64,000 bases of DNA. Source: Erythrobacter sanguineus (GTDB lineage: Bacteria > Pseudomonadota > Alphaproteobacteria > Sphingomonadales > Sphingomonadaceae). How positions within the stretch are numbered: the stretch's first letter is position 1; each line of letters opens with the position of its first letter. Below, piece by piece: positions 38,370-63,624 of the stretch. The stretch spans positions 1-64,000 of the forward strand of contig CAMCUB010000016.1 in the NCBI GenBank assembly GCA_945878845.1. The letters run 5' to 3'. A program made the position numbers and the translations under genes. A model generated the notes under the pieces. That model saw nothing but the letters and a program-made list of their open reading frames with translations, was not told the origin of the DNA and searched no databases.

Positions 38370-38610
38370 GCGTCACCGCCTCCGCGGTGACGTCCTCGGT
38401 GCTGTTCCCCTTCGCTGCGCTACGGGGGCACCTGCGGCTCGCGCCGTGCGCTCGCGGCCCTCGCGGGCCGGATCACCGCCTTCCAAGAGGGGGAGCGCTG
38501 GTTCGGTCCGCCAACGGACGGACCGCAAGGCCGAACGGCCGCCCGCAGGCGCCCGAAGCGAAGTGGAGGAACAGCACCGAGGACGAACCCGCGGAGGCGG
38601 GTTCGCAAAA
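38370..38610. repeat. Family D structured element, largest copy, with 39-bp terminal inverted repeats
   Basis: The left end (38370-38408) and the reverse complement of the right end (38568-38606) match at 33 of 39 positions. All six mismatches form compensatory pairs inside a local hairpin: GTCACC/GGTGAC on the left, GAACCC/GGGTTC on the right. Further hairpins inside include GGCC-gaac-GGCC (38529-38540). Related elements: 63538-63624 and, more distantly, 1771-1860. It fills the 282-base gap before the GGDEF gene's stop codon. Confidence 0.85.
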
Positions 38611-38614
38611 CAAA

Positions 38615-39367
38615 TCAAGCAGCCCGCTCGCTCCGATTCCGCCCCGCCAGCTTGGCGCTATACAGCGCTTGGTCGGCGCGGGTGATGAGGCGGCCGGGGG
38701 TTTCGGCGGGGGCTTGCTCGGCGAGGCCGAAGCTGGCGGTCAGGCGCCAGGGGCCGGCCGGGGTGATCAGCGGGGTCTCGGCGATGGCGGTGCGCAGGGC
38801 CTCGATCCGGGCGGCGAAGGTGGCAAAGTCGGTGGTGCGGGCGGCGATGAGGAACTCCTCGCCGCCGATCCGGGCGACCAGCCAGCCCTCCGGCACCATG
38901 CGGCGCAGCATGGCGGCAAAGTGGACGAGGCTGGCGTCGCCGCCGTCATGGCCGAGCCGGTCGTTGACGCGCTTGAAGTGGTCGATGTCGGCGATCGCGA
39001 GGGCAATCGGGGCGCTGCTCCCGGCCGACCACTCGGCCAGCTGCGCCAGGGCCGCGCGGCGGTTGGCGAGGCGGGTGAGCGGGTCCTCGTGCGCAAGGCG
39101 TTCAAGCTCGCCGCGCGAGGCTTCGAGCTCGAGGGTGAGCGCGGTGATCCAGCGGAAGGCGAGGCTCGCCACCACCAGCGGGATCGTTGTGGCGAAGACC
39201 ATGGTGTGCGAATACTGGACCTGGCCGAACATGGTGAAGGAGGTGTGGGCGAAGAACACCGACGTGGCGACCGATCCGCCGACGACGATGATGCCGGTGC
39301 GGCGCACGCGGCGGCGCAGCTCGGACGGGGCGCCGGTGGCGGCATGAGAGGCGGGAAGCGGGTTCAT
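38615..39367 (-). CDS. Membrane-anchored GGDEF diguanylate cyclase
   Basis: 250 residues: two membrane helices (about 24-46 and 54-77), a short coiled linker, then a complete GGDEF domain. The active-site loop is RIGGEEF (GGEEF at 168-172), with ADIDHFKRVNDRLGHDGGD for Mg/GTP binding. The RxxD inhibitory site five residues before GGEEF is absent, so feedback inhibition is not expected. It should make cyclic di-GMP, opposing the HD-GYP protein at 24865. It is divergent from the cold-shock gene. Confidence 0.92.
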   Translation of the reverse strand: MNPLPASHAATGAPSELRRRVRRTGIIVVGGSVATSVFFAHTSFTMFGQVQYSHTMVFATTIPLVVASLAFRWITALTLELEASRGELERLAHEDPLTRLANRRAALAQLAEWSAGSSAPIALAIADIDHFKRVNDRLGHDGGDASLVHFAAMLRRMVPEGWLVARIGGEEFLIAARTTDFATFAARIEALRTAIAETPLITPAGPWRLTASFGLAEQAPAETPGRLITRADQALYSAKLAGRNRSERAA

Positions 39368-39491
39368 CGCACCGCGCAGGATAGCAGACGAGGTGTCGCG
39401 AATGTCTTAACGCCGGGCTCCGGGGCCGGGGCGGGTGCGACGGGCCGATTAGGCGATCTGTGGAAAGCGTGCTACGGGCACGGTGCTGACG

Positions 39492-39522
39492 TCGAAATTT
39501 GCGACGGACTTCGAAATTTGCG
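39492..39522. promoter_or_regulatory. Direct repeat TCGAAATTTGCG x2
   Basis: Exact 12-base copies at 39492-39503 and 39511-39522, 19 bases apart (start to start), each with an AAATTT core. They lie in the AT-richer middle of the 281-base gap between the GGDEF and cold-shock genes. The two-turn spacing suits paired protein binding. The rest of this gap shows nothing else clear. Confidence 0.45.
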
Positions 39523-39627
39523 CTCAACCACCCGGCCCCGGCCGCTTGGCGACTCCCAGACGACGACTTCCTTTCATCGGACGATACGACGCACGGCCCG
39601 AAGGCATATAGCCTGCGGGCAACCTAT

Positions 39628-39644
39628 TGTTCTTGAAAGGAACA
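39628..39644 (+). promoter_or_regulatory. Small hairpin presenting the cold-shock ribosome site
   Basis: TGTTC (39628-39632), loop TTGAAAG, GAACA (39640-39644). The Shine-Dalgarno AAAGGA (39636-39641) spans the loop and the start of the right stem, 7 bases before ATG 39649. Melting could adjust translation with temperature. The stem has only five pairs. Confidence 0.4.
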
Positions 39645-39648
39645 TCGC

Positions 39649-39861
39649 ATGAGCACCAAGACCGGAGTCGTCAAGTTCTTCAACACCGAAAAGGGCTATG
39701 GCTTCATCCAGCCCGACGATGGCTCGTCGGACAGCTTCGTCCACATCACTGCCGTGCAGGCCGCTGGCATGCACAGCCTCGATAAGGACCAGCGTCTGAG
39801 CTACGATCTCGAGCGCGGGCGCAACGGCAAGGAAAGCGCCGTGAACCTGGCCGCGGCCTGA
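39649..39861 (+). CDS. Cold-shock protein, CspA family
   Basis: 70 residues, one cold-shock domain. RNA-binding motifs are KGYGFIQP (RNP1, 15-22) and SFVHI (RNP2, 31-35), preceded by GVVKFFNTEKG. It binds single-stranded RNA/DNA and melts RNA structure. The surface is typical except for an Asp/Ser insertion (DDGSSD). The 5' region contains a possible -10 (TATAGC at about 39607) and the hairpin described separately. Confidence 0.95.
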   Translation: MSTKTGVVKFFNTEKGYGFIQPDDGSSDSFVHITAVQAAGMHSLDKDQRLSYDLERGRNGKESAVNLAAA

Positions 39862-39948
39862 TCTGACTATAGGGAGCGGGGTGCTGCGGCATCCCGCTCC
39901 TGCGCCTAACGAATCCCGCCGATCCCCTCCCATGGCAGGACACCCCCG

Positions 39949-40176
39949 ATGGCCCAGACCTACGAATTCTGCAGCGAGCGTGCCGACGAGGCCGCCGATC
40001 TTGCCGCCAAGGCGACGCTCGACAATGTGCGCGATCGCGAATTGCGCTCCGAGAAGACCTGGCGCGGCCTAGCCGAACAGGCGCGCAAGACCATCGCAGA
40101 GCGTGAGAAGGCGGAAGCCATCAGGGCCGAGCGCCGTGCGGCAGACGCCCCTGTTCCCGAACGCTCGGTCGGATAG
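39949..40176 (+). CDS. 75-residue charged helical protein
   Basis: MAQTYEFCSERADEAADLAA, then an Arg/Glu/Ala-rich helix through KTIAEREKAEAIRAERRA. It looks like a single long amphipathic helix with no membrane segment. Short proteins of this kind occur in sphingomonads without known role. It follows the cold-shock gene by 87 bases on the same strand. Confidence 0.6.
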   Translation: MAQTYEFCSERADEAADLAAKATLDNVRDRELRSEKTWRGLAEQARKTIAEREKAEAIRAERRAADAPVPERSVG

Positions 40177-40247
40177 GGTTCGCACCCGCGACGTTGCCGC
40201 CCGGATCGAGGCGCGGCCGCGCGGGGTCTCGTCCGATCGGGGGGTAA

Positions 40248-41432
40248 CTAGAGCCCCTTGCGCCCGAACACCCGCGCCCGCACCCCGCGCCCGCTGACCC
40301 CGGTCAGCCCCGGCTCGGCAGGGGGCGGCGGCGGCGCTGCCGCGGGCACATCCGGATGGCGCACCTCGAAGCGCCCGCCGATCCCCTCGGCGAGCTTGCG
40401 CTTCTCGAACCACTCATTGGCGAGCGCCATCTTCTCGTCCTGATCCGCCGGCATGAGATCGAGCGGGAAGGCGCGGTCGTCGATAACGCGGTCGTCGGGC
40501 ACGTGTTCAGGCGAGACGAAGCCGTGGGCAAGGTGCTTCAAGGGAACCAGTTCGTAGAGCGGCATGTCGGCGGGCGAGGGGTCGGTCTGGCCGATCATCG
40601 CGCCCGTCTCGTGGTGCAGCACCCGGTAGGAGAGGCTGCGATCCTCGGGTCCGAAGGTGTCGCCATCGGGGATGACATAGCCGTTCTCCGCGGTCGCGAT
40701 CCGCATGAAGGCGAGGATCGTCTCGAAATTGGCGGTCCATGGCAGGACATTGGGCTCGACGATGATCTCGCGACCCAGCCAGTGGCGGGCGCCGAAGGTG
40801 CGGATGCCGACCAGCGGCGTGTCGCCGGACGCCGCGCGCGGCCCGAACATCTGGGGGTGGATGTGGAGCGGCCCGGGCACGCTGTCGCTCGCGGCGATGT
40901 GCTCGAACACCTCGCCCCCCAGCAGCAGGCCCGATTGCGTCCAGTGCATCGCGAGCGGCATGGCATGGTCGATCGCGATCCGCGTCAGCAGGGTGAGCAC
41001 CGCGAGGCGCCGCTCGAACTGCGGCTGGCTTGCGCCCGAGCGCGGGCGGCCGATGGCTTCTAACATCGCCGCGATCTTGGGATCCTCCTCGACCCCGCCC
41101 ATCACCCCGTGCGAGACCTCGAGCAGGACGTGGCCATAGGTCCGGCCGATGCGGCTGCGGATGTCGGGGGTGACGATCCCGGTATAGGGCGAGGCGAGCG
41201 GCCCCGCAAAATGCCGTTCGTCGCACGGCCCGTCGACATATTCGAGCGTGACCATCAGCTCCTCGGTCCCCTCGAACAGGCGGTAGAAGCGGCCCGGGTT
41301 CTGTTCGGAGAGATGGAAATGCGCGTTCGAGCGGATGCCCTCGATCCGCAGGAAATCGCGCATCACCGTTTCGAGATGATCGACGCGGGTATCGAACAGC
41401 AGCGCAGTCTGGATTCGGTTGGGGTAGAGCAT
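40248..41432 (-). CDS. Conserved-looking cytoplasmic protein of unknown function, 394 residues
   Basis: ATG 41432 (MLYPNRIQTALLFDTRVDHL) was chosen; a start 12 codons earlier is possible. No signal peptide or membrane helix. The first ~120 residues are alpha+beta. The next part (AMHWTQSGLLLGGEVFEHIA, then TFGARHWLGREIIVEPN) weakly recalls DUF4261 domains. The C-terminus is a Pro-rich tail (AAAPPPPPAEPG) ending in a basic ARVFGRKGL. No catalytic motif was found. It follows the FAD-domain gene by 54 bases on the same strand. Confidence 0.7.
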   Translation of the reverse strand: MLYPNRIQTALLFDTRVDHLETVMRDFLRIEGIRSNAHFHLSEQNPGRFYRLFEGTEELMVTLEYVDGPCDERHFAGPLASPYTGIVTPDIRSRIGRTYGHVLLEVSHGVMGGVEEDPKIAAMLEAIGRPRSGASQPQFERRLAVLTLLTRIAIDHAMPLAMHWTQSGLLLGGEVFEHIAASDSVPGPLHIHPQMFGPRAASGDTPLVGIRTFGARHWLGREIIVEPNVLPWTANFETILAFMRIATAENGYVIPDGDTFGPEDRSLSYRVLHHETGAMIGQTDPSPADMPLYELVPLKHLAHGFVSPEHVPDDRVIDDRAFPLDLMPADQDEKMALANEWFEKRKLAEGIGGRFEVRHPDVPAAAPPPPPAEPGLTGVSGRGVRARVFGRKGL

Positions 41433-41486
41433 GGCGATGGCGGGTCCGGGCGTGGATGACAGCCGCAAGGTGTTACGCCAGCAGGG

Positions 41487-42746
41487 TTAACTCCGGGTTG
41501 AAGCGGGCACTGCGCCGCCGTGGATTGCGCATTCGGCTAGCAGGTTGTCGATCGCTTTGGCGACCCCGAAGAACCCCGCCTTGGCGAGCGGCCAGGTGGC
41601 GCGGTCGAGATCGCCGAGCAGGGTGACGACCCGGCCCGGCTCGCCAAGCGTTGCGAGGTCGGGCGCGAGCGCGTCGCGGGTCCATCCGGTTGGCAGATAG
41701 GGCACCGCGATCCGCTCCACCCCCGCCGCCGCCAGCAGGGGCGCGAGCGGCTCGCCCGCGCGCCATTCCACCGCGGGGCAGCCGAAGGCAGCCGCGGCCT
41801 CGGCCATCCCGCCCGCCAGCGCGCCCTTGGCGAAGGCGAGCGCATGGGTGCCGGGCGCGTGGGGGGAGCGCGCTTCGGGCCGGGCGGCAGCGATCACCAG
41901 CGCGGGCGCGGCGGGGAGGGCGAGGGGGGCGTGGTGCGCGGCCTCGTCATGCAGCAGCAGTGCGAAGGGTTTTGCGAGGTCGGCGGCGGCGACGGGCGCA
42001 GGCAAGTCGAGCTTCTGCCGTGCGTATTCCTGCGGCTCGGTCAGCGGCTCGGCCTCGTCCCCCGCAAGCCGCGCAGCATCAAGCGCCCCCTCGGGCCGCC
42101 CGGCGGTGTAGCGCGCGATGTTGTCGGCCCGCGCGAGGTAGTGCTTGCCCTTGGTGTGCAGTCCCGCGACCCAGCGCCATGACAGCGTGTTCGACGCCGC
42201 GTCGCCGTCCTTCAGGTGCCGCAGGAAGAAATCCGCCCCGAGGCGCCAGTCGAGCTTCAACGTGAAAATCCAGATGCTCGCAAACCACATCCGCGCGTGG
42301 TTGTGGAGGTAGCCGGTCGCCACCAGCTCCAGCGCCCAGACGTCGAAAGCTTCGATCCCCGTGCGGCCTTCCACCGCCTCGGAATAGGCCTTGCGCAGGC
42401 CTGCATTGGCATCAAGAGCGGCCACAGCGCCATCGCGGCCGCTACAAAAATCCGCCCAGATCGCGGGGCGCTGTTCGAGGTAGCCCTTGAAGTAGATCCG
42501 CCAGAACACCTCGGCGATGAACTTTTCCGCCGCGCGGGGGCTGTGCTGGCCCAGCACCGCCTCCAGCACCTCGGTCTCGCTGATCACCCCGGCGTGGAGC
42601 CACGGCGAAAGCTGCGAGACATTGCCGCGACCCTCGGCCCTCGGGCCATCATCGGCATTGCGGGTCTCGGCATAGCGGCGGCCGGCGGCGGGGAGAAAGG
42701 CGGCGAGGCGCGCAAGCGCAGCGGCGCGGGTGGGGGCAAGGTCCAT
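41487..42746 (-). CDS. Cryptochrome/photolyase FAD-binding-domain protein with unusual domain order
   Basis: 419 residues. The first ~220 are the helical FAD domain of the photolyase family: NVSQLSPWLHAGVIS (42-56), FIAEVFWRIYFKGYLEQRP (76-94), HNHARMWFASIWIF (148-161), DWRLGADFFLRHLKDGDAAS (166-185) and TLSWRWVAGLHTKGKHYLAR (187-206). In ordinary photolyases this domain follows an alpha/beta antenna domain. Here it comes first, and residues 230-419 form an Ala-rich alpha/beta region (PALVIAAARPEARS). Light-driven repair or signalling is possible; activity is unproven. Confidence 0.8.
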   Translation of the reverse strand: MDLAPTRAAALARLAAFLPAAGRRYAETRNADDGPRAEGRGNVSQLSPWLHAGVISETEVLEAVLGQHSPRAAEKFIAEVFWRIYFKGYLEQRPAIWADFCSGRDGAVAALDANAGLRKAYSEAVEGRTGIEAFDVWALELVATGYLHNHARMWFASIWIFTLKLDWRLGADFFLRHLKDGDAASNTLSWRWVAGLHTKGKHYLARADNIARYTAGRPEGALDAARLAGDEAEPLTEPQEYARQKLDLPAPVAAADLAKPFALLLHDEAAHHAPLALPAAPALVIAAARPEARSPHAPGTHALAFAKGALAGGMAEAAAAFGCPAVEWRAGEPLAPLLAAAGVERIAVPYLPTGWTRDALAPDLATLGEPGRVVTLLGDLDRATWPLAKAGFFGVAKAIDNLLAECAIHGGAVPASTRS

Positions 42747-42821
42747 GGGCGGGCAATGCCTTGGCGTGGCTGCGGTTCCGGCCTATTCCTGCAAGTGAGG
42801 AGAGACCCAATTCAACACCGC

Positions 42822-43250
42822 TTGCCCTTGCGCCTTCTGCAGCTCGCCATGCTTGCGCTGGCCGCCGCCTGCGCTCCCGCCAAGACCGACGGCATCGACC
42901 CGCAAGGCAAGGCCTTCGATGCCGTCAAGCCGCAAGAGGCGGTCACCATGCTCGGCACCGAGCCGTTCTGGAACCTTGCGGTGACCGGCGACGGGGGGCT
43001 GTGGACCACCCCCGAAAACCAGCCCGGCGCGCGCTTTGTGGTCAAGCGCTTTGCTGGCAACGGGGGCCTCGGCTTCTCGGGCGAGGTCGACGGCAAGCCC
43101 CTCACCGCCACGCTCACCCCCGGCCAGTGCAGCGACGGGATGAGCGACCGCAGCTTCCCCTTCGTCGCCACTATCGCTTTGGGCGGGGAGACTCTGAAGG
43201 GCTGCGGCTATACGGATAGCCAGCCATTCACCGGCCCCGCAGCGCCATAA
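42822..43250 (+). CDS. Predicted lipoprotein, COG3650-like
   Basis: About 142 residues. A TTG start at 42822 gives a complete lipoprotein leader (MPLRLLQLAMLALAAAC). The only in-frame ATG nearby (42849) would leave almost no signal peptide, and an AGGAGAGA lies at 42797-42804. The mature domain has MLGTEPFWNLAVTGDGGLWT and LTPGQCSDGMSDRSFPF, the COG3650 pattern with a likely Cys pair (GQCSD and LKGCGY). The function is unknown. It is divergent from the FAD-domain gene. Confidence 0.7.
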   Translation: MPLRLLQLAMLALAAACAPAKTDGIDPQGKAFDAVKPQEAVTMLGTEPFWNLAVTGDGGLWTTPENQPGARFVVKRFAGNGGLGFSGEVDGKPLTATLTPGQCSDGMSDRSFPFVATIALGGETLKGCGYTDSQPFTGPAAP

Positions 43251-43283
43251 GGCGCGCGGGCGTCCTCACTGGGGAGAGACAAT

Positions 43284-43691
43284 ATGACCATGACCGGAGG
43301 CTGCCTGTGCGGCGCCGTGCGCTACACCTGCGAGAGTGACCCGCTGCTTTGCGTCACCTGCCATTGCAAGAACTGCCAGCGGCAGGCGGGCAGCGCGCTC
43401 TCGGTGATCATCGGCGTGCCCGAGGACGCGGTCGCCTTCGAGGGCACGCTCAAGACCTATAACGACACCGGCGATAGCGGCGCGACGGTGCGGCGGCAGT
43501 TCTGCCCGGAATGCGGATCGCCGGTCTTCACCCGGGTCGACAGTCCGCCGGGGATGATGTTCATCAAGGCCGGGACGCTCGACGATACCAGCATCCTGAA
43601 GCCCGCCTTCCACTGCTACGCCAAGAGCAAGCAGGACTGGGTCGACCTCGGCGACACGCCGAGTTTCGAGACCGTGCCCCAAGGCTTGTAA
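43284..43691 (+). CDS. GFA-family zinc protein
   Basis: 135 residues. Cysteines are arranged as in the glutathione-dependent formaldehyde-activating family: GGCLCGAVRY (two), VTCHCKNCQR (three), FCPECGSPVF (two). These coordinate two zinc ions. Most GFA members are of unknown function and are not formaldehyde enzymes. GGGAGAGAC precedes ATG 43284, 33 bases after the lipoprotein stop, so the two may be co-transcribed. Confidence 0.92.
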   Translation: MTMTGGCLCGAVRYTCESDPLLCVTCHCKNCQRQAGSALSVIIGVPEDAVAFEGTLKTYNDTGDSGATVRRQFCPECGSPVFTRVDSPPGMMFIKAGTLDDTSILKPAFHCYAKSKQDWVDLGDTPSFETVPQGL

Positions 43692-43698
43692 CTTGGCG

Positions 43699-45162
43699 TT
43701 AGAACAGGCCGGGCAGTTCGCGCTGGGCCGGCGCGGGCGCTGCGGGCTGGAGCAGCTCGCGGCTCGGGAGGTTCAGCCCGGCGCTCTCGTTCTGACCGGC
43801 GTTGTCGCCCGTGCTGGCCGAAGCTGACGCGCTAAACGGAGTGCAGGAGCGTCCGGCAAGGAAATCGAGCGCCACTGCGGTCGAGGCCTCGCGCGGATCG
43901 CCGAAGGGCCGCGTGATATCGTCCCCGGCGCGGCAGGTATTGGGCACGAAGGGCCCGATCCCGAAGAAGTAGTCGCCCTGGTTGTTGGCGTTCACGGTCT
44001 GGAAGGTCACCGCCCGGACGCGCAGATCGCAGGCGGCCAGATCGAAGCCGAACTGGCCGACCGGCTTGCCCGAGGTATCCGCGCCGATCAGCGCGACATT
44101 ATTGCCGAGATAGGGCAGCATCGCATTGATAATGAGCTCGCTCGCCGAGGCGCTGGCCTGCGTGGTGATGAAAGCGATGCGGGTCGGCGCGATGGCATTG
44201 GCCTCGTTGCGGAACAGGCGGGTGGTGTTTTCCGAGGCCTTGGAGGGACGCAGCACGGTGCGGCTGAACACCTGGCCGGTGCGGCCCCGGCCCATCAGAT
44301 CGCCCATCGTCTCGGCCACGCTCACCAGCCCGCCGCCATTATAGCGCAGGTCGATGATCAGCTCGGTCACCCCTTGCGCGGCGAACTGGCCATAGGCTGC
44401 ACGCAGCTGCGCGGCGGCATCGGACACGATGAAGGTGCGGAAGTTGAGGTAACCGACCCGCCGCCCGCCATCGTTGAGGATGGTGACGCCGTAGCGATCG
44501 GAAATCGGATCGAGCGAGAAGTCGCTCTTGGTGATGTTGGTTTCAACCGTCGCCCCGCCGGGCTGGACGAAGCGCAGCACCCGCGCAAGACCGGCGGTGG
44601 ACGGGCCGAGCGCATCGACCACGGCCTGCGCCCCGCCGCTCGCCATCAGGCTCGAGACGCTTTGCAGGTTGGCGCTGGTGGTGCCGATCGCGGTGATCTC
44701 GCTCCCCCGGTCAAGCCCGGCGGCAAGGCCGTTGGTGCCTTCATAGGCCTCGACCACGAACACGCGGCGCGCGGCGTTGTCGAAGCTTAGACGAATGCCG
44801 AACCCGGCGCTGGAGCCGGAATTGATCAGTGCAGTTTCTTGCGCGATCGAGGTGGAGAAGGTGAAGCCCTGATCGCGGCCCTGCGCGCGGGCGGGGGCGA
44901 CGCGCGCGTCGAGGAAGCTCTGCACCGAACTGAAGCTCGCCGGGTTGGCCGCGGCGAGCAGATCGGGGAACAGATACCACTCATTGAGCACCTGATCGGC
45001 AAAGTCTTGCTGCGCGCGCAGCGAGCAGGCGCCCGAGGTCGGCGTCGGTGTCGGGGTGCCGCCGCCGCCGGTGGGCGGGGCGGAGGAGGACGCGCCCCCG
45101 CCGCCGCAGGCGGCAAGCTGGAAGGCCAGAACAAGGCTGAGGGCAGTGCGACCGACACGCAT
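43699..45162 (-). CDS. S41-family peptidase, lipoprotein
   Basis: 487 residues from ATG 45162. Lipobox FQLAACGGGG (Cys19) is followed by a Gly/Pro/Thr linker. Next come an N-terminal helical region (QQDFADQVLNEWYLFPD), a PDZ-like domain with SAGFGIRLSFD and GLDRGSEITAIGT, and the S41 protease core: LIIDLRYNGGGLVSVAE, the nucleophile region TTQASASASELI, and GADTSGKPVGQFGF with the likely Lys. It is C-terminal-processing-protease-like and acts in the periplasm. It is convergent with GFA. Confidence 0.9.
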   Translation of the reverse strand: MRVGRTALSLVLAFQLAACGGGGASSSAPPTGGGGTPTPTPTSGACSLRAQQDFADQVLNEWYLFPDLLAAANPASFSSVQSFLDARVAPARAQGRDQGFTFSTSIAQETALINSGSSAGFGIRLSFDNAARRVFVVEAYEGTNGLAAGLDRGSEITAIGTTSANLQSVSSLMASGGAQAVVDALGPSTAGLARVLRFVQPGGATVETNITKSDFSLDPISDRYGVTILNDGGRRVGYLNFRTFIVSDAAAQLRAAYGQFAAQGVTELIIDLRYNGGGLVSVAETMGDLMGRGRTGQVFSRTVLRPSKASENTTRLFRNEANAIAPTRIAFITTQASASASELIINAMLPYLGNNVALIGADTSGKPVGQFGFDLAACDLRVRAVTFQTVNANNQGDYFFGIGPFVPNTCRAGDDITRPFGDPREASTAVALDFLAGRSCTPFSASASASTGDNAGQNESAGLNLPSRELLQPAAPAPAQRELPGLF

Positions 45163-45404
45163 GGCAGGAATCTCTCCGGGGCATTCTCGCGCGCCGTCTG
45201 GGCGGCGCGCATGGGCAGGAATGCCCCGCCAAACGCGCAAGAGCAAGCACGCCTGACACGGTTCGACCCGTTATGGCGCAAAAAAACGTGACCTTTTTGC
45301 CTGCATTTGCAGGGTTTTCCGCAGAATCCGCTGAAAATGCCCTTGCCTAGTCTCGCAAGCCGCATCCGAAGGGACTAGCACGAGGCCAGTGAAAAGACAG
45401 AATC

Positions 45405-45995
45405 ATGACTAATTTCCCCGCCTGGCTTGCACCCCATGTGCCCGCGTCCGCGCGTCATCCCGGTCTTGCGATCGCGCAGCTCGGCTCTGCGCAGAGCTTT
45501 GCGCGCGGCGGCTTTGCGCTGACGAGCCCGGCGTTCCGCAGCGGCGAGGCGCTCGATCCGAGCTTCACCGCCGAGGAAGAAGACGCGGTCGCTCCGCCGC
45601 TCGAATGGAGCGCGCCGCCGCCCGGCTCGGCGGAGCTGGTGCTGGTGGTCGAGGATGCCTCGAACGCGGCCGCTGCCGATCCCGCCTGCCACTGGCTGGT
45701 CTGGGGCCTCGCCGGCCAGCGCGGCAAGCTGCTTGAGGGCGAGGTGCCGCCGCGCACCGGCAAGAACGCGGTCGGCAATTCCGAATGGCTGCTGCCCGCT
45801 CCGCCCGAAGGCGAGACGCGCCACTACCTGTTTCAACTTTTCGCGACTGACCTGCCGCTGGTGCTGATGCCCGGCGCAGGGCGGGCGGAACTGCTCGCAT
45901 CATTGCAAGGGTCGATAACGGCTTGCGCGGTGCTCCACGCCACCTTCACCGGTGGCGGAGACGAGGATGCGGACTGGGAAGACGATGATTTGTGA
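45405..45995 (+). CDS. YbhB/YbcL family (PEBP) protein
   Basis: 196 residues, cytoplasmic. It has the phosphatidylethanolamine-binding-protein pattern FALTSPAFRSGEALDPSFTA, VAPPLEWSAPPPGSAELVLV, CHWLVWGLAG and HYLFQLFATD. It ends with an acidic tail (GGDEDADWEDDDL). Bacterial members resemble Raf-kinase-inhibitor proteins but their role is unknown. The N-terminal 27 residues before the fold are extra. SWIB follows 31 bases later. Confidence 0.9.
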   Translation: MTNFPAWLAPHVPASARHPGLAIAQLGSAQSFARGGFALTSPAFRSGEALDPSFTAEEEDAVAPPLEWSAPPPGSAELVLVVEDASNAAAADPACHWLVWGLAGQRGKLLEGEVPPRTGKNAVGNSEWLLPAPPEGETRHYLFQLFATDLPLVLMPGAGRAELLASLQGSITACAVLHATFTGGGDEDADWEDDDL

Positions 45996-46026
45996 TCAAC
46001 CTGCCACTGACATAAGGGAGTAGACA

Positions 46027-46278: not shown

Positions 46279-46320
46279 GCCTGCCGGGCGCCGCTTGGCG
46301 CACGTGCGAGCTTGCACACA

Positions 46321-48763: not shown

Positions 48764-48770
48764 TAGGCGA

Positions 48771-55907: not shown

Positions 55908-55995
55908 CCGATGCAGGCATATTGGATGCTTGCAGGGCCATGCAAATTGCTCCTAACGTAAGCGTCAAGTGAGAGACGAGAGAGGAGAGTCGGTC

Positions 55996-57189: not shown

Positions 57190-57196
57190 TGGAAGC

Positions 57197-57277
57197 GTCG
57201 CCCCGGACTTGATCCGGGGCCGCTATCGCCCTTGGCGCCAAGATCACAGCGGTCCCGGGTCAAGCCCGGGATGACGG
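57197..57277. repeat. Family B palindromic repeat, copy 2
   Basis: GCCCCGGACTTGATCCGGGGC (57200-57220 approx.) faces TCCCGGGTCAAGCCCGGGA (about 57253-57271) followed by TGACGG. Fills the 115-base gap between the two acyl-CoA dehydrogenase genes. Confidence 0.85.
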
Positions 57278-57304
57278 ACAGAATTTCCGGGAGAGGGAAA
57301 ACCA

Positions 57305-58444
57305 ATGCCCCTGTATCACAATGAAGATCAGGCGATGCTCGCCGACACCGCGCGCGGGTTCATTGCCGAGGAAGGCAATATCGCCAAGCAGCTGCGCCAC
57401 TGGCGCGACCGCAACTGCAAGGACGGCTTCGGCCATGCCCTGTGGAAGCAGATGGCCGAGATGGGCTTTACCGGCATGCTGGTCGAGGAAGCCGACGGCG
57501 GGCTCGGGATGGGCCATGTCGAAGCGGGGATCGTGCTCGAGGAAATCGGCCGCAATCTGACGCCTTCGCCGTTCCTGACGTCGTCGGTGCTGGCAGCGAC
57601 GGCGCTCAAGCACGGGTCGGCGGACCTGAAGGGCCGCTACCTACCCGGCCTGATTGCGGGCGATTCCGTGTTTGCGGTGGCGATTGACGAGACCGCCAAG
57701 CACCGACCCTCGCGCATCACCACCCGCGCCGAAAAGTCGGGCAACGGGTTCAAGCTGTCGGGCGCCAAGAGCTTCGTCATCCACGGCAGCAGCGCCGACA
57801 TGATCGTGGTCGCCGCGCGCACGGCGGGGGGCGACGATGATGCGGACGGCATCACGCTCTTCGCAGTGCCCAAGGACGCGGCGGGCATGAGCCATGATGC
57901 CGTGCGGCTGGTCGATAGCTCGATGGCCACCCACACCAAGTTTGACGGCGTCGAGCTCGACGGCGACGCTGTGATCGGCGAGATCGACGGCGGGCGCGCC
58001 GTGCTCGATGCCATGCTGGTCGCGGGCCGCGTCGGCGCTGCCGCCGAGGGCGTGGGCGTCGCGCGCGGGGCGATGGACATGACGGTCGATTACCTCAAGC
58101 AGCGCAAGCAGTTCGGCAAGCTGATCGGCGAATTCCAGGCGCTCCAGCACCGCGCCAGCCACCTCTATTCCGAGGTCGAGATCGCCCGCGCGGTGACCAT
58201 CAAGGCGCAGCAATTGCTCGACGGCGGATCGGCCCACGCCGACCTGATGGCGAGCGTCGCCAAGGCCAAGGTCGCCAAGACCGCGCGCCTCGCGGTGCAG
58301 GAAGGCGTGCAGATGCACGGCGGCATCGGCATGACCGACGAATACGACATCGGCCTCTACATGAAGCGCGACCGCGCGCTGGCCGAATTCCTCGGCGACG
58401 CCAACTTCCACACGGGCCGCGTGGCGGAACTGAGCGGGTACTAG
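57305..58444 (+). CDS. Acyl-CoA dehydrogenase, family member 2
   Basis: 379 residues. FAD/ACAD pattern: GFTGMLVEEADGGLGMGHVE, SGAKSFVIHGSSADMIVVAA, VDYLKQRKQFGKLIGEFQAL (Arg/Gln of the FAD-binding helix), MHGGIGMTDEYDIGLYMKRD. The active-site Glu position after the FAD helix is not obvious, as in non-catalytic partners of heteromeric ACADs. GGGAGAGGG precedes ATG 57305. Likely forms a complex with the upstream ACAD. Confidence 0.9.
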   Translation: MPLYHNEDQAMLADTARGFIAEEGNIAKQLRHWRDRNCKDGFGHALWKQMAEMGFTGMLVEEADGGLGMGHVEAGIVLEEIGRNLTPSPFLTSSVLAATALKHGSADLKGRYLPGLIAGDSVFAVAIDETAKHRPSRITTRAEKSGNGFKLSGAKSFVIHGSSADMIVVAARTAGGDDDADGITLFAVPKDAAGMSHDAVRLVDSSMATHTKFDGVELDGDAVIGEIDGGRAVLDAMLVAGRVGAAAEGVGVARGAMDMTVDYLKQRKQFGKLIGEFQALQHRASHLYSEVEIARAVTIKAQQLLDGGSAHADLMASVAKAKVAKTARLAVQEGVQMHGGIGMTDEYDIGLYMKRDRALAEFLGDANFHTGRVAELSGY

Positions 58445-58449
58445 GCCGA

Positions 58450-58541
58450 TGTCGTCTCCCCGGGCTTGACCCGGGGCCCCGCTTCTTTCTCGCGGCGGGC
58501 AAAAAAGTGAGCGGGATCCCGGGTCAAGCCCGGGAAGACGG
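58450..58541. repeat. Family B palindromic repeat, copy 3
   Basis: TCCCCGGGCTTGACCCGGGG (about 58456-58475) faces ATCCCGGGTCAAGCCCGGGA (about 58516-58535), followed by AGACGG. Fills the gap between the second acyl-CoA dehydrogenase and the SDR. Confidence 0.85.
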
Positions 58542-58552
58542 AGAGATTTCAA

Positions 58553-59365
58553 ATGGACCTAAAATCACTATTCAGCCTCGAAGGCCGCATCGCCCTCGTC
58601 ACCGGGGGCAGCCGCGGGATCGGCAAGATGTTCGTCGAGGGGCTCCTCGCGGCAGGCTGCGCGCGGGTCTATATCTCGGCGCGCAAGGTCGAGCAGATGC
58701 AGGCGACCATCGATGAATTCGGCGCGGATCGCGTCATCGGCATCCCCGCCGACCTCTCGCAGATGGACGGCATGGTGAGCCTCGCCAATGAAATGAAGGC
58801 GCGCGAGAGCCATCTCGACATCCTCATCAACAATGCTGGCGCGGCGTGGGGCCAGCCCTATCTCGAATTCTCCGAGGCCGGCTGGCACCGGACGATGGAT
58901 TTGAACGTCAAGACGCCGTTCTTCCTCACCCAGAAGCTCCACGACCTGCTGGTCGCAGGCGGCAAGCAGGGGCACCCGGCCAAGGTGATCCACGTCTCCT
59001 CGATCGATGGCCAGCGGATCAACCCGTGGGAGACCTATGCCTATCAGGCGTCGAAGGCGGCGGTGATCCAGCTCACCCGGCGCATGGCCGCGCGGCTGAT
59101 CCAGGACAATATCGTTGTCTCCTCGATCGCGCCGGGCGCTTTCCCCTCCGAGATGAACAAGGCCGCCAAGGATGCGCCCGACGCATCGGCGAGCGGCATC
59201 CCCGCCAAGCGCATCGGCACCGCCGAAGACATGGCGGCGGCCGCGATCTACCTGTGCAGCCGCGCGGGCGATTATGTGGTGGGCGACACGCTCACGGTCG
59301 ACGGCGGCGTGGTCAACGCGCTGCTCCCCAATCACTTCGCCGATCCGAGCGGCGGCGGGCACTGA
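58553..59365 (+). CDS. Short-chain dehydrogenase/reductase, RhlG/FabG-like
   Basis: 270 residues with all classical SDR motifs: VTGGSRGIG (16-24), NNAG (about 92-95), Ser in VIHVSSIDG, and YQASK (Tyr-x3-Lys). ARKVEQM after strand 2 favours NADPH. Sequence context fits 3-oxoacyl reductase-type members, including the RhlG group. Third gene of the ACAD-ACAD-SDR set, which is closed by a strong terminator. Confidence 0.9.
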   Translation: MDLKSLFSLEGRIALVTGGSRGIGKMFVEGLLAAGCARVYISARKVEQMQATIDEFGADRVIGIPADLSQMDGMVSLANEMKARESHLDILINNAGAAWGQPYLEFSEAGWHRTMDLNVKTPFFLTQKLHDLLVAGGKQGHPAKVIHVSSIDGQRINPWETYAYQASKAAVIQLTRRMAARLIQDNIVVSSIAPGAFPSEMNKAAKDAPDASASGIPAKRIGTAEDMAAAAIYLCSRAGDYVVGDTLTVDGGVVNALLPNHFADPSGGGH

Positions 59366-59386
59366 TTGGCGCCGCGATCGCTAGAC

Positions 59387-59420
59387 AAAAGGGCCGCCGG
59401 ATCGCTCCGGCGGCCCTTTT
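59387..59420 (+). terminator. Strong intrinsic terminator closing the ACAD-ACAD-SDR operon
   Basis: AAAAGGGCCGCCGG (59387-59400), loop ATCGCT, CCGGCGGCCCTTTT (59407-59420): a perfect 14-pair stem ending in a T run, 21 bases after the SDR stop. The A run upstream makes it work in both directions. Confidence 0.92.
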
Positions 59421-59499
59421 CGTGCGCCGCTTCGGCGATTGCGGCCCTGTCCGGTTCGGCATAGACTGACGCCTCGTCACAGTTGCGAGGGCCGCAAAA

Positions 59500-60159
59500 A
59501 TGCTCCGATTCCCCAAGACTTTGATCGGGGCCTGCGGGCTGGCGCTGATGCTGCCGGGGGCGGTGTTCGCACAGCAACCGGCCGAGCCCCCACTGGCACC
59601 CGCGCCCCCTCCGTCCCCCGAAGCGCCGCCAGCCGGAAAGGACGAGGAGTTCCTGCTCGACGAGGCTCCTGCCGCGCCTGCCGAAGTCTCGCCCGAAATC
59701 ACCACCATCCTCGAGCAGATGGACCAGGTGATCAAGGCGATCGATGCCAAGGCGGAGCGCAGCGGCAACAGCTGGCAGTTCACGCTGCAGGAGCGGGTGA
59801 AGGTGGTCGTCACTGATACCACCGCCGGGCGGATGCGGATCATCACCCCGATCGCGCTAGTCGCCGAACTGACCGAGGGCGGCATGCAGCGCCTGATGCA
59901 GGCCAATTTCGATACCGCTCTCGACGCGCGCTATGCGGTGGCGCAGGGCCTTGTGTGGGGTGCGTTCATCCATCCGCTCGACTCGCTCACCACCCGCGAT
60001 TTTGCTGCAGGGATTCTCCAGACCCATGCCATCGGCGAGACCTTCGGCACCACCTATTCGAGCGGTGCGATCAGCTATGGCGGGGGTGACAGCAGTGCGA
60101 TCTACGAAGAGCAGCTAAAGGAGCTGCTGGAAGAGATCGAACGCAACTCTTCGACCTGA
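59500..60159 (+). CDS. Secreted protein of unknown function, YbjN/CesT-like fold suspected
   Basis: 219 residues. Signal peptide (IGACGLALMLPGAVFAQ) and a Pro/Ala-rich linker to residue 65. Then a single domain: LEQMDQVIKAIDAKAERSGN, WQFTLQERVKVVVTDTTAGR, RLMQANFDTALDARYAVAQG, WGAFIHPLDSLTTRDFAAGI. The helix-strand order resembles the YbjN/CesT chaperone-like fold. The Gly/Ser stretch and acidic helix at the end are extra. No firm function. Confidence 0.7.
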   Translation: MLRFPKTLIGACGLALMLPGAVFAQQPAEPPLAPAPPPSPEAPPAGKDEEFLLDEAPAAPAEVSPEITTILEQMDQVIKAIDAKAERSGNSWQFTLQERVKVVVTDTTAGRMRIITPIALVAELTEGGMQRLMQANFDTALDARYAVAQGLVWGAFIHPLDSLTTRDFAAGILQTHAIGETFGTTYSSGAISYGGGDSSAIYEEQLKELLEEIERNSST

Positions 60160-60190
60160 TCGCCGATCTCCGGCGCTCGCCCAAAAAAGA

Positions 60191-60223
60191 GGCCCACATC
60201 CCCTCTCACAAGGAATGTGGGCC
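60191..60223 (-). terminator. Minus-strand-oriented intrinsic terminator with no assigned gene
   Basis: GGCCCACAT (60191-60199) pairs with ATGTGGGCC (60215-60223). Read on the minus strand the stem is followed by CTCTTTTTTGG, a good U run; on the plus strand no U run follows. Both flanking genes are on the plus strand, so it would end an antisense or small RNA started in 60224-60405 or within the Crp/Fnr gene. The rest of this 246-base gap shows nothing clear. Confidence 0.55.
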
Positions 60224-60405
60224 TAAGAGGCAGGGGAGAATTGCTCCCCCGCCCGGGTCGCACCTTCCCTATCGCGCATAGCCTCAGCGCCGTCTGTGAT
60301 GGCCATCACGGCTTTGCGCGGCGGCGCGATTTATTCTGACCCCCGTCAGCCGTTGCCGGGGGTCTTCAGCGCCCCTATCCACGGCGATCACAGGGGGCTC
60401 TCATA

Positions 60406-61107
60406 ATGATGGATAAGCTCGACGATCTCATCGCCCGGCTCGCGCCCGACTCGCTGCTGCGTGCGCTCGCGCCCGAACAGCTTGAACAGCTGCTGCGCGA
60501 GGCCACCCGCCGCGACCTGCGCCCCGGCGAGCCGATCATCTCGCAGGGCGACGAGCACGGCGATTTTGCGGTGGTGGTGCTGACCGGCGGGCTCAAGATC
60601 ACCATGGTCAGCGCCAGCGGGCACGAGATCATCCTGAACTATTGCGGCCCCGGAGAGCTGGTCGGCGAGATCGCGATGCTCGATTCCGGCCCGCGCACCG
60701 CGACCGTGATCGCGGCGGTGCCGTCAGCGGTGCTGCTGCTGCCCTCGCACACCTTCCTTGCCGCGGCGACCGCCAACCCGGTCTCGGCCTCAGGCGTGAT
60801 GCGTGAATTGGCGCGGCGGGTGCGCCAGCTCAATCTGGTGATCGAGAGCGACCGCACCTTCTCGATGGCCCCGCGCCTCGCCCGCGCGCTGGTGCGGCTG
60901 ATCGATCCGGCGCGCGATGACGGGCGGCTGCGCTTCGATCCCAACCAGAGCGATCTTGGAGCCTTTGCCGGCCTCGCGCGCGAGAATGTCAGCCGGCTGC
61001 TGTCGGACTGGGAAGCGCAAGGCGTGATTGCCCGCGAGGGCCGTGCGTTGACGGTGCGCGATATGGGCTACCTCCAGACCCTCGCCGAGTTCGGCGACGA
61101 TGCCTGA
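60406..61107 (+). CDS. Crp/Fnr-family transcriptional regulator
   Basis: 233 residues. N-terminal cyclic-nucleotide-binding fold (LRPGEPIISQGDEHGDFAVV, GPGELVGEIAMLDSGPRTAT), a dimerisation helix, and a C-terminal helix-turn-helix (LGAFAGLARENVSRLLSDWE). The cAMP-contact Arg-Ser pair reads SGPRTATV, as in many sphingomonad members. No Fnr-type N-terminal cysteines, so an iron-sulfur sensor is not indicated. The ligand and regulon are unknown. Confidence 0.92.
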   Translation: MMDKLDDLIARLAPDSLLRALAPEQLEQLLREATRRDLRPGEPIISQGDEHGDFAVVVLTGGLKITMVSASGHEIILNYCGPGELVGEIAMLDSGPRTATVIAAVPSAVLLLPSHTFLAAATANPVSASGVMRELARRVRQLNLVIESDRTFSMAPRLARALVRLIDPARDDGRLRFDPNQSDLGAFAGLARENVSRLLSDWEAQGVIAREGRALTVRDMGYLQTLAEFGDDA

Positions 61108-61127
61108 GGGGCACCGGGCTTAAAACC

Positions 61128-61778
61128 TTAACCCATCAGCCCGCGCACGAAGGGAATGAGCCCGGTCTGGCGCATGCGCTTCATGCGCTCGGCCTCGAGG
61201 ATCGCGCGGACCTTCTCGAAACACACGTCGATATCGTCGTTGATGATGACGTAGTCGTAGCCGTCCCAGTGGCTGATCTCTGCCCGCGCGCGTTCCATGC
61301 GGGCGGCGATGACCTCGGCGCTGTCGGTGGCGCGGCCCTTGAGGCGGCGGTGGAGCTCGTCGATCGAGGGCGGCAGGATGAACACCCGGACCACGTCCTG
61401 CTGGTCCTTCTGGTAGAGCTGCTGGGTGCCCTGCCAGTCGATATCGAACAGGAAGTCCTGCCCTTCTTTCAGTCCGGCGCGGATCTTGCCCTTGGGCGTG
61501 CCGTAGCGATGGCCGAAGACCTCGGCCCATTCGTAGAAATCATCCTCCTCGATCATCGCCTCGAACTGTTCGGGCGAGACGAAGTGGTAATGCACCCCGT
61601 CGACCTCGTTCGGGCGCGGCGGGCGGGTGGTGGCGCTGACCGAGAGCCTGATCTCGGCGTCCTTGGCCAGCAGCATCCGCGACAGCGTGGTCTTCCCCGC
61701 GCCCGAGGGCGAGGAGAGGATGAACATCAGGCCCCGGCGGTGAAGCTGGTCTGCGGCATTGTGTGAGGATTCGCCCAT
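61128..61778 (-). CDS. gmk: Guanylate kinase
   Basis: 216 residues. P-loop SSPSGAGKTTLSRML (23-37), RPPRPNEVDGVHYHF for GMP binding, and DIDWQGTQQLYQKD. It phosphorylates GMP and dGMP. The N-terminus is about 15 residues longer than in E. coli, as often in alphaproteobacteria. Likely transcribed from the right-hand side; the next gene upstream is the unknown at 61821. Confidence 0.97.
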   Translation of the reverse strand: MGESSHNAADQLHRRGLMFILSSPSGAGKTTLSRMLLAKDAEIRLSVSATTRPPRPNEVDGVHYHFVSPEQFEAMIEEDDFYEWAEVFGHRYGTPKGKIRAGLKEGQDFLFDIDWQGTQQLYQKDQQDVVRVFILPPSIDELHRRLKGRATDSAEVIAARMERARAEISHWDGYDYVIINDDIDVCFEKVRAILEAERMKRMRQTGLIPFVRGLMG

Positions 61779-61820
61779 GGGCTCCGTTGCACCATTGCGA
61801 CGCGGGAAATCAAGCGTGGA

Positions 61821-62261
61821 TCAGGATTCGCCGGTAGTCGGGGGTGCAGGGGGCGGCGCGGCCTTGGCCGCACGCCGCTTCTTGTCGAGCCGGCGCCCGC
61901 GGTCGTAGAACACCTTGGCAGCCAATCCCCCCGCGATCACCGCCAGACCCAGCGGCGAGCGGCGCGCGAGGCGGCTTGCTCCGTAAAGCGCGAGGCTCGA
62001 CGCCAGCCCGCGGTTGCCAACCAGCTTGTCGGCCTTGTCCTGCCCGTGGCTCTTGACGATCAGGCCCTTCTCGAGCCGGTCACGCAGCAGGCCCCCGGCC
62101 GCGCGCAGCACGATGTCGGCGATGACGAGATTGGTGCCGACCGAAGGGCTGGGGAGCGGCAGGCCTGCGGGGCCGGTGGGCTTGGCAGTTGCCGGAGCCT
62201 CGGCTGCAGGCGCGGCGGGTGTCCCGCGTTTGGCTTTTCCTGTCCGTCTGGCCGCTGCCAT
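61821..62261 (-). CDS. Unknown alanine-rich protein with hydrophobic C-terminal part
   Basis: 146 residues from ATG 62261. An Ala/Pro/Lys-rich first 50 residues (MAAARRTGKAKRGTPAAPAA), then DIVLRAAGGLLRDRLEKGL and a hydrophobic LGLAVIAGGLAAKVFYD helix, ending in a basic tail. No family was recognised; the layout suggests a membrane-peripheral protein. The longer upstream frame is antisense to sspB and was not used. It follows sspB by 10 bases. Confidence 0.65.
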   Translation of the reverse strand: MAAARRTGKAKRGTPAAPAAEAPATAKPTGPAGLPLPSPSVGTNLVIADIVLRAAGGLLRDRLEKGLIVKSHGQDKADKLVGNRGLASSLALYGASRLARRSPLGLAVIAGGLAAKVFYDRGRRLDKKRRAAKAAPPPAPPTTGES

Positions 62262-62271
62262 CAGGACGAGC

Positions 62272-62751
62272 CTACTTCTTGCGGCCGAAATCGATCGAGA
62301 CGACGTTGGAGCCGTCCGGATCGGTGTCCGGTCCGTCATTCTCGGCATCCTCGTGCGCTTCGGGCTCGAGCTCGTCGACCGCGGCCTGGAATTGCAGGCC
62401 GAAATCGACCGCCGGATCGACGAAGGCGGTGATCGCGGCAAACGGGATCGTCAGCTTGGCGGGCACCTGATTGAAGGTGAGGCTGACCGAGAAGAGCTGC
62501 GGAAGCACCTCGAGATCCCAGAACTTGTTCTGGAGCACGATCGTCATCTCGTCCGGAAAACGCTCGCGCAGGTGCGGCGGGATCGAGACGCCGGGGGCGG
62601 CGGTCTTGAAGGTGATGTAGAAATGATGCGCGCCCGGCAGCATGCCGCCGCCGCTGACAATCGAGCCCAGCACCCGGCCGACAACCGCGCGCAGAGCTTC
62701 CTGCACGATCTCGTCGTAGGGGATCAGGCTGTCGGGCGTGTCGGCGTTCAT
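62272..62751 (-). CDS. sspB: SspB-type ClpXP adaptor protein
   Basis: 159 residues from ATG 62751. Alphaproteobacterial SspB pattern: IPYDEIVQEALRAVVGRVLG, GAHHFYITFKTAAPGVSIPP, MTIVLQNKFWDLEVLPQLFS, and an acidic linker ending in a basic VVSIDFGRKK, the ClpX-docking tail. It hands ssrA-tagged proteins to ClpXP. Divergent from hisB with 152 bases between. Confidence 0.92.
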   Translation of the reverse strand: MNADTPDSLIPYDEIVQEALRAVVGRVLGSIVSGGGMLPGAHHFYITFKTAAPGVSIPPHLRERFPDEMTIVLQNKFWDLEVLPQLFSVSLTFNQVPAKLTIPFAAITAFVDPAVDFGLQFQAAVDELEPEAHEDAENDGPDTDPDGSNVVSIDFGRKK

Positions 62752-62903
62752 GGCAAGGCGGATTCGTGGCCGCACAGGCGGACTTGGTCAAGGGTATTTG
62801 ATGTGTCACGCCGGATTGACAGTGGACACTCCCGGTGCGGTGCCAGTGCTGGGCCGGTGCCGGTGATGCTTGTCATGCGGGCGAAGCGGACTATAGCGCC
62901 GAC

Positions 62904-63512
62904 ATGGCCAGCACTCCTCCCCGCACCGGCGCGGCAGACCGCAACACCACCGAGACGAAGATCGCCATTGCCGTCAATCTCGACGGGACCGGCGCCTATG
63001 ACGTTTCGACTGGCATCGGCTTTCTTGATCACATGGTGGAGCAGTTCAGCCGCCACTCGCTGATCGACGTGACGATGAAGGTCGAGGGCGACCTCCACGT
63101 CGACCAGCACCACACCACCGAGGATTCGGCGATCGCGCTGGGTCAGGCGATTTCTCAGGCGCTGGGCGAAAAGGCCGGGATCGGGCGTTACGGCGCGGCC
63201 TATTCGCCGATGGACGAGACCCTTTCGCGGGTTGCCTTGGACATCTCCGGGCGGCCGTATCTGGTGTGGAAGGCCAAGTTCACCCAGGAACGCCTCGGCG
63301 AATGGGACACCGAGCTGATCGAGCACTGGTTCCACTCGGTCGCCCAAGCGGCGGGCATCACGCTCCACATGGAGCTGCTCTACGGCACCAACAACCATCA
63401 CATCTGCGAGAGCCTCTACAAGGGTTTCGCCCGCGCCATGCGGCAGGCCGTCGAGCGCGACCCGAGGAAGGGCGGGGCGATCCCCTCGACGAAAGGCCAG
63501 TTGCGTGGCTGA
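62904..63512 (+). CDS. hisB: Imidazoleglycerol-phosphate dehydratase
   Basis: 202 residues from ATG 62904. Complete manganese-site motifs: [27 protein letters not shown] and [20 protein letters not shown]. Sixth step of histidine synthesis. Monofunctional, without the phosphatase domain of enterobacterial HisB. hisH follows after a structured repeat. Confidence 0.97.
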
Positions 63513-63537
63513 ACAGAGCAATTCGGTTGCGAAGCAG

Positions 63538-63624
63538 CCGCAAGCCCGAACGGGCGCCCGCAGCGGGCGCAGCTGTGCTGCGCGCATAGCGAGGACCGCA
63601 CCCGCGGAGGCGGGTGCGGAAAAC
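63538..63624. repeat. Family D structured element between hisB and hisH
   Basis: CCGCAAG-CCC-GAAC-GGG-CGCCCGCAG and GCGAGGACC-GCACCC-GCGGAGG-CGGGTGC match the right part of the 38370-38610 element. The two hairpin stems carry different bases that still pair: GCCC/GGGC here versus GGCC/GGCC there, and GCACCC/GGGTGC versus GAACCC/GGGTTC. It ends 4 bases before the hisH start codon and may shape hisH translation. Confidence 0.8.

Follow-up and report, generated by a model that had tools for sequence, protein, structure and literature searches.

A four-hairpin interspersed repeat, best read as folding in one strand polarity at gene 3′ ends in Erythrobacter and its relatives

We describe an intergenic repeat, termed D, that is present in a stretch of 64,000 nucleotides from Erythrobacter sanguineus (assembly GCA_945878845.1, contig CAMCUB010000016.1, positions 1 to 64,000; hereafter the window). 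Our best reading is that D is a repeat resembling the repetitive extragenic palindromes (REP) and bacterial interspersed mosaic elements (BIME), with a new architecture, and that it folds as a single strand of one polarity at the 3′ ends of genes. Bacterial interspersed palindromes are commonly put down to REP transposases or to effects on translation near stop codons. Neither explanation suffices here, because no REP transposase was found in the genomes tested and because D also lies at the 3′ ends of tRNA, RNase P and 6S RNA genes, i.e., its placement at non-coding genes needs a reason other than, or in addition to, an effect on translation. The analysis suggests that D is a new kind of folded spacer at gene ends.

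A D unit is about 105 nt long and comprises four hairpins, P1 to P4, with the conserved linkers CCGCRAG, CCGCAG and GAGGA between them and an A-rich tail at the 3′ end. This layout came from an alignment of 46 copies, obtained by an iterated profile search of stretches fetched from the home genome. P1 mostly opens with CGG and closes with CCG, followed by CRAG; P2 has four pairs and loops such as GAAC, GACC or ACGC, followed by CCGCAG; P3 exists in several types and is followed by GAGGA; and P4 has eight to ten pairs, mostly around GGAG or GGAT in a loop of the form C(GGAG/GGAT)G, and leads into the tail. In a larger set of 211 sequences (the window plus fetched loci), 263 profile hits yielded 258 distinct copies, and all three linkers could be parsed in 235 of them, this first parse having left out 23 copies at the first (11), second (9) or third linker (3). 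Among the parsed copies the first linker was CCGCAAG in 187 and the P4 loop was CGGAGG or CGGATG in 208, while GAGGA preceded P4 in most; the P1 arms were of 94 different sequences and the P4 arms of 159. The tail contained 46-81% A at each of its first 8 positions (213 copies). Units occur singly or as divergent inverted doublets, and 35 of the 39 neighbouring copy pairs less than 400 bp apart had the divergent (−+) arrangement. A weak GCGCTG-like motif was seen 5′ of P1, GCGCTG itself occurring within 40 bases in 27 of 162 single units.

The stems covary extensively. In a structural alignment of 12 copies, 92% of the cells were paired and both sides had changed in 19 of 32 pairs, although the structure was drawn from the same 12 copies, so that the paired count leans towards it. 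None of 500 shuffles reached any of the five measures used, and sliding the structure along the alignment left only 29-43% of cells paired. Counts that needed no alignment, being anchored on the P4 loop (236 copies) or the first linker (227-228 copies), revealed several positions at which all four Watson-Crick forms occurred; pair 4 of P4, for example, was CG in 119, GC in 94, TA in 14, AT in 4 and another combination in 5 of the 236 copies. The consensus that RNAalifold drew from 15 class-B copies was weak (covariation term -0.92), which we think resulted from misalignment of the variable hairpins by MAFFT; it hinted at a possible pairing around P3 between two invariant linkers, CCCGC and GCG-A-GG. 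That D units are merely chance likenesses among the GC-rich hairpins of a GC-rich genome, an idea with nothing but the high GC content in its favor, is already refuted and has practically no probability: the three linkers recur in the parsed copies, and matches to a covariance model (see below) reached E = 5.0e-21 outside its training set, with none outside the family in a class sample of 289 genomes.

The pairing defects have a strand polarity. A hairpin acting as RNA or as one strand of DNA tolerates G·T but not A·C, whereas neutral decay or DNA cruciforms would give equal numbers of the two. In the anchored stems we counted 76 G·T against 21 A·C (39:13 in P4, 28:8 in P1 and 9:0 in P2), the ninth, outermost pair of P4 (41:18) being excluded. 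When the count was limited to one copy per site cluster (185 copies) and to stems having just one defect, the ratio was 47:9, with 16 other mismatches (p = 2.6e-7). The excess had the same direction in every neighbor context, i.e., 13:1 (p = 0.002), 12:4 (p = 0.08), 12:3 (p = 0.04), 5:1 (p = 0.2) and, for unclassified neighbors, 5:0 (p = 0.06), although some of these classes were not significant alone. The excess of G·T over A·C indicates that one strand is the folded strand, and these sequence counts point to selection acting on a single strand of one polarity.

Copies at the same site in different genomes were recognized by their flanks. This identified 143 pairs of orthologous copies, which fell into 37 site clusters, and the closest pair of each cluster was taken. 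With parsers that need mostly intact stems, and that therefore counted 35, 29 and 26 of the 37 site pairs for P4, P2 and P1, respectively, 106 changes in these three stems affected both sides and left the pair intact, against 26.6 double changes expected if the arms had changed independently. The remaining 17 comprised nine one-sided changes to a G-U-type pair, seven broken on one side and one broken on both sides. At a site between a LytTR gene and nadC, P1 was identical in three species while P4 passed through the steps AA/TT, AG/CT and GG/CC. Among P4 stems differing at just one or two pairs there were 39 double paired, 8 single paired and 3 broken changes, from 13, 3 and 3 sites, respectively, pairs within a cluster not being independent. 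Covariation might also arise without selection, if template switching at imperfect palindromes copied one arm onto the other so that stems stayed perfect, and the great excess of both-sided paired changes over one-sided ones (106 versus 16) favors this. Template switching, however, predicts equal numbers of G·T and A·C defects and leaves the conserved linkers, loop and tail unexplained; as the sole cause it is disfavored by the G·T excess, and we regard it as very unlikely.

Orthologous copies were more alike than random copies (0.71 versus 0.51 for P4), and their likeness fell with flank divergence. Copies also homogenize within a genome, so that part of the covariation represents turnover, and both descent with compensation and replacement or homogenization seem to occur. 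A first-pass annotation of the window had argued from covariation in three places that selection acts on structure, beyond shared descent. The covariation in the 12 copies and the excess of G·T over A·C support this, with the qualifications that the two ends of one doublet cannot distinguish selection from an exchange of stems between copies, and that with in-genome turnover some of the covarying changes were not made in place.

Placement was assessed with genes called by our own codon-usage script, whose stop codons are robust and whose start codons are less so. Only 6 of 258 copies lay inside a called gene. In 160 of the 228 copies for which both neighbors were called, the gene facing the D tail was on the opposite strand, and in 120 of the 228 (90 of 161 sites) the tail fell within -12 to +25 nt of the facing stop codon; when copies were placed and oriented at random within these gaps, the mean was 46.6 and the maximum 59 in 200 runs. 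The tail was near a start codon in 18 copies; at the P1 end, 36 copies had a stop codon nearby and 5 a start codon. The tail also lay about 1 nt from the 3′ end of an RNase P RNA gene, about 6 nt from that of a 6S RNA gene and about 15 nt from a CC2171-like match below the gathering score. Eight of the ten tail-side tRNA genes within 150 bp (tRNA-Thr, tRNA-Trp and tRNA-Gln) presented their 3′ end to the tail at 1-31 nt, probably representing about three independent sites, and the other two had the 5′ end towards it, at distances of 79 and 92 nt. We reject the stop codon as the target in itself, since tails are found against non-coding genes, too.

Tails directly past stop codons might instead mark D as a 3′-end element of the abutting gene's own transcript, in which a stop codon, a U-rich stretch and the hairpins would affect mRNA stability, ribosome stalling or re-initiation. 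According to the excerpted text of PMC12306157, some REPs of Escherichia coli lie near stop codons much as D does, and those within 15 nt of the stop codon can lower translation; stable structure directly past stop codons is likewise reported in the excerpt of PMC7518266. Against such an element stand the G·T excess, which is on the opposite strand, and the copies at the 3′ ends of tRNA, RNase P and 6S RNA genes, where ribosomes cannot be involved. We consider it decidedly improbable.

The polarity of folding and the direction of the tail fit a different role. An RNA that enters a gene from the wrong end is the RNA that would contain the folded unit, which favors a function as a boundary or antisense insulator. 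Transcription entering from the wrong end would pass the D unit in its folding orientation, and the tail would be the point, just short of an overlap with the gene, at which the antisense transcript is stopped or processed. A divergent doublet would serve both of its neighbors in this way, and in his and other operons in which D points in the sense direction, it would separate or process two cistrons. The folded strand is presumably RNA, and the unit presumably acts in cis. We hold only tentatively, at rather less than an even chance, the composite view that D is a dispersed, non-autonomous element with a fold of one polarity, whose tail often lies against the 3′ end of an opposite-strand gene and which has a boundary role in cis. 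The stronger proposal, that D founds a kind of boundary RNA with four hairpins and one polarity, which lies against the 3′ ends of coding and non-coding genes, stops or processes transcription from the antisense side and can be exchanged between species for unrelated palindromes at the same site, is improbable as it stands; if it were true, antisense insulation would become a general function of the palindromes between bacterial genes. Some genomes hold dozens of copies, the hairpins are interchangeable, and close relatives offer natural sites that lack D or carry other palindromes, so that the role of palindromes at gene ends becomes testable.

A number of results weigh against a boundary role for a folded RNA. 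Base composition and 6-mers 5′ of P1 gave no obvious promoter (no formal search was made), a promoter-consensus scan of 38200-38800 in the window found none, and the source of transcription is not evident in the 71 of 228 cases in which both neighbors read against the folding strand. The T-run of an intrinsic terminator was not found on the folding strand of 213 copies, the tail being A-rich. A G·T excess of this kind could also come from selection on a single-stranded DNA intermediate or from strand-biased mutation. A looser hairpin finder that included P3 gave 134 G·T against 108 A·C, which was not significant (p = 0.11; 59:25 in P4, 29:24 in P1, 6:8 in P2 and 40:51 in P3); we do not regard this finder as reliable for P3 or wherever stems are not anchored, and the anchored counts replaced it. 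Exclusion of badly broken copies by the stem parsers favors paired changes, and one-sided changes were surprisingly rare at orthologous sites. Whole elements differed despite flank identities of about 90% (e.g., L242 versus L160), and swaps of P3 type occurred. The P2 loop followed the genome rather than the site, GACC or GACT occurring in 0 of 42 readable home copies versus 118 of 191 elsewhere (the two groups having been gathered by different searches), and this held at shared sites as well. Together with the rarity of one-sided changes, this dependence of the P2 loop on the genome suggests that stem evolution is in part a matter of wholesale replacement.

These last differences between whole elements and between P2 loops also favor the main rival, in which D is a mobile repeat and selection maintains its structure because movement depends on it: a single strand of one polarity would be excised, copied or converted by some enzyme, copies would re-enter or overwrite preferred sites at gene 3′ ends, and a function in place would be absent or secondary. 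Such a repeat is further favored by the independence of polarity from the direction of the neighboring gene, by the recurrence of divergent doublets and by sites in relatives that lack D. However, the REP transposase domain (Y1_Tnp, of the RAYT proteins) was found in 0 of 15 element-bearing genomes tested, and RVT_1 in only 2 of the 15. No transposase- or mobilizer-like gene was seen by eye, enclosed or adjacent, in eight stretches with widely spaced copies, and the greater likeness of orthologous copies, declining with flank divergence, also speaks against this rival. We judge the mobile repeat unlikely, though by no means negligible, and selection at the level of movement can be true together with a boundary role. 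As specific candidates, we rejected mobilization by RAYT (of two genomes lacking a D match, Y1_Tnp was present in one, G200, and not in the other, G388), retro-mobilization, and an autonomous element enclosed by copies.

Sites that lack D were found at two junctions. The hisB-hisH junction could be read in 16 genomes of the same genus, and D was present in two (G205 and G210); in the others the two genes overlapped or abutted, or there was a short gap or a further stretch of about 290-410 bases. The LytTR-nadC site was matched in 17 of the 18 genomes searched, and five of the 17 carried D directly past the stop codon. In G200 and G388, which are nearly identical there, the stop and start codons overlap, whereas G377, G318, G199 and G091 appeared by eye to have different palindromic sequences at this point. 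Six of the 17 gave no significant D match, and two of these six showed remnants by eye. Motifs from three such palindromes recurred in the fetched loci (20, 8 and 5 matches), and with the presence of other palindromes this makes it seem that the position attracts or tolerates hairpin repeats in general. In G377 (locus L274), a palindrome of the TGAGCTTGTCGAAG type occupied the position of D 3′ of the LytTR stop codon, its motif having 20 matches in 13 loci. The motif GGGTCAAGCCCGG occurs in the window at 57257-57269, 58460-58472 and 58521-58533; it belongs to an unrelated palindrome that, in G318 and G199, holds the place at the 3′ end of the LytTR gene where other genomes have D.

The first-pass annotation had proposed a covariance model and a genome search as a check, and these yielded many more copies with stems that stay paired: 49 matches at E ≤ 0.01 in the home genome, training copies included, with 150 of 8,804 first-look candidates scored. 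Five further genomes had 14 to 38 matches each. Of 199 genomes sampled from the family, representing 96 genera, 45 genomes from 23 genera had matches (E ≤ 1e-3); in the wider samples, matches were present in 66 of 296 genomes of the order (E ≤ 1e-4) and in 3 of the 289 of the class (E ≤ 1e-4), all three from the home family. These larger searches scored the 13-19 best candidates per genome under stricter filters, so that the counts are lower bounds and a weak presence may have escaped. In these family, order and class samples, D was confined to one family (Erythrobacter, Porphyrobacter and their relatives). An exact pattern matched at least 116 stretches in a named genome collection, mostly from Erythrobacter, Porphyrobacter, Altererythrobacter, Aurantiacibacter, Alteraurantiacibacter and bins labeled Sphingomonadales or Alphaproteobacteria; among the matches listed, one bin was labeled Gammaproteobacteria and one Proteobacteria, presumably through mis-binning. 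Eleven D stretches were on IMG/VR contigs. In three of these (L263, L270 and L271) D copies lay between phage-like structural genes, and L263 carried phage-type capsid and tail genes (Pfam matches of two proteins); we take this gene cluster to resemble a gene transfer agent. The doublet had no match at E 1e-5 in 72,556 plasmid records, and we rejected plasmid-borne D.

Several known systems resemble D in part. REP sequences are often paired as doublets, and their hairpins have a conserved tetranucleotide of the GTAG type at the foot. Like the REP, BIME and REPIN elements of Enterobacteria and Pseudomonas, which in the excerpt of PMC12306157 are dispersed intergenic palindromes lying in some cases directly past stop codons, D is dispersed and forms inverted pairs (49 home matches; 35 divergent doublets among 258 copies). 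It differs in having four hairpins per unit, freely covarying stems and copies at the 3′ ends of non-coding RNA genes, and, because their defining transposase was tested for and not found in the 15 element-bearing genomes, we do not file D as a REP/RAYT member. Erythrobacter cryptus holds D (L206), and the excerpt of PMC12306157 tabulates 3,055 predicted REPs in this species, among which D copies may sit, in that text, undescribed as a family. The structures at which ribosomes terminate are, in the excerpt of PMC7518266, a structural feature rather than a repeat family; they share with D a position directly past stop codons, whereas D has the opposite polarity and also lies at non-coding ends. 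No such family was named among the titles listed in our literature search; the excerpt of PMC4741004 held nothing relevant, and that of PMC2267715, which covers 40 genomes, had no occurrence of Sphingo or Caulobacter.

The modularity of BOX elements consists of repeated boxB units, whereas in D the order P1-P4 is fixed and P3 comes in several types. ERIC/MITE-like repeats are palindromic, about 100-250 bp long and intergenic; single D units are not symmetric palindromes, and only doublets have inverted ends. RNAs of the CsrB/RsmZ type carry GGA in hairpin loops, as D does in the P4 loop and a linker. However, CsrA (PF02599) was not found in the home genome (it was found in 3 of 14 control genomes), and we rejected a CsrA sponge. 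BOX, RUP and SPRITE of pneumococcus are, in the excerpt of PMC3049150, small structured interspersed repeats that proliferated in one group, in which they are like D. A scan of the window and 46 loci with Rfam (release 15) at the gathering score gave no match overlapping D, and we rejected a known RNA family.

In the window, the covariance model (R1, built from 12 copies outside it) recovered four copies, after which the best remaining of the 83 listed matches had E = 0.21. Two of them form a divergent inverted doublet at 38364..38612, with A-rich tails outward and P1 hairpins inward: the left unit (38364..38471, minus strand; 77.6 bits, E = 6.3e-14) and the right unit (38503..38612, plus strand; 62.8 bits, E = 5.4e-11). 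The first-pass annotation had described the ends of the doublet as inverted copies whose differences preserve a stem. Indeed, the reverse complement of 38370-38408 differs from 38568-38606 at exactly 6 of 39 positions, which form three complementary pairs in one stem (GTCACC/GGTGAC versus GAACCC/GGGTTC). As also claimed, a D copy abuts the stop codon (38615-38617) of a GGDEF gene (38615..39367, minus strand; PF00990, E = 2.3e-32), the tail of the right unit stopping 2 bases short of it. The region 38365-38615 had a folding z of -9.5, with 0 of 200 shuffles folding as well. A direct repeat, TGTAACTTTTGTAAC, lies just beyond the doublet at 38347-38361 and resembles TGTAACTTTCGTAAC next to a D copy in L172.

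The divergent member that had been placed near 1771-1860 was matched by the model at 1770..1845 (plus strand; 39.4 bits, E = 2.5e-6), and is D-like to that extent; it is atypical, having lost the central hairpin. The 3′ half of this copy (1766-1862) is rearranged, and a profile query with 1766-1862 matched itself alone in the 211 sequences. It may be a decayed D copy, or belong to a separate family having P1 and P2 in common.

The fourth copy (63523..63625, plus strand; 64.1 bits, E = 3e-11) splits hisB from hisH, as had been noted, i.e., the imidazoleglycerol-phosphate dehydratase gene (62835..63512, plus strand; PF00475, E = 6.7e-65) from the glutamine amidotransferase gene, which is cut by the window end (63629..64000, plus strand; PF00117, E = 5.8e-9). 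All four hairpins are on the plus strand: P1 (63524..63540) is CGGTTGC-GAA-GCAGCCG with one T-G pair, P2 (63544..63555; pair counts on 228 copies) is GCCC-GAAC-GGGC, P3 (63567..63583) is GCGCAGC-TGT-GCTGCGC, and P4 (63596..63619), preceded by the GAGGA linker (63591..63595), is CCGCACCCGC-GGAG-GCGGGTGCGG. The A-rich tail, AAAACCAAG (63620..63628), lies immediately 5′ of the hisH start codon. The third version of the doublet stem that had been reported here (GCACCC/GGGTGC) is present, and so is the second covarying stem around GAAC, GCCC/GGGC in this copy and GGCC/GGCC in the right-hand doublet unit. The region 63520-63630 had a folding z of -4.4, again with 0 of 200 shuffles folding as well. 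At this one site, the insert (63505-63637) is flanked by an imperfect 8-base repeat (TGGCTGA/TGCCTGA). This repeat may be an imperfect duplication of a target, the target being the hisB/hisH overlap seen in relatives. A second operon is split in L158, where a D copy at 5090-5174 separates tolQ- and tolR-type genes (MotA_ExbB and ExbD/TolR).

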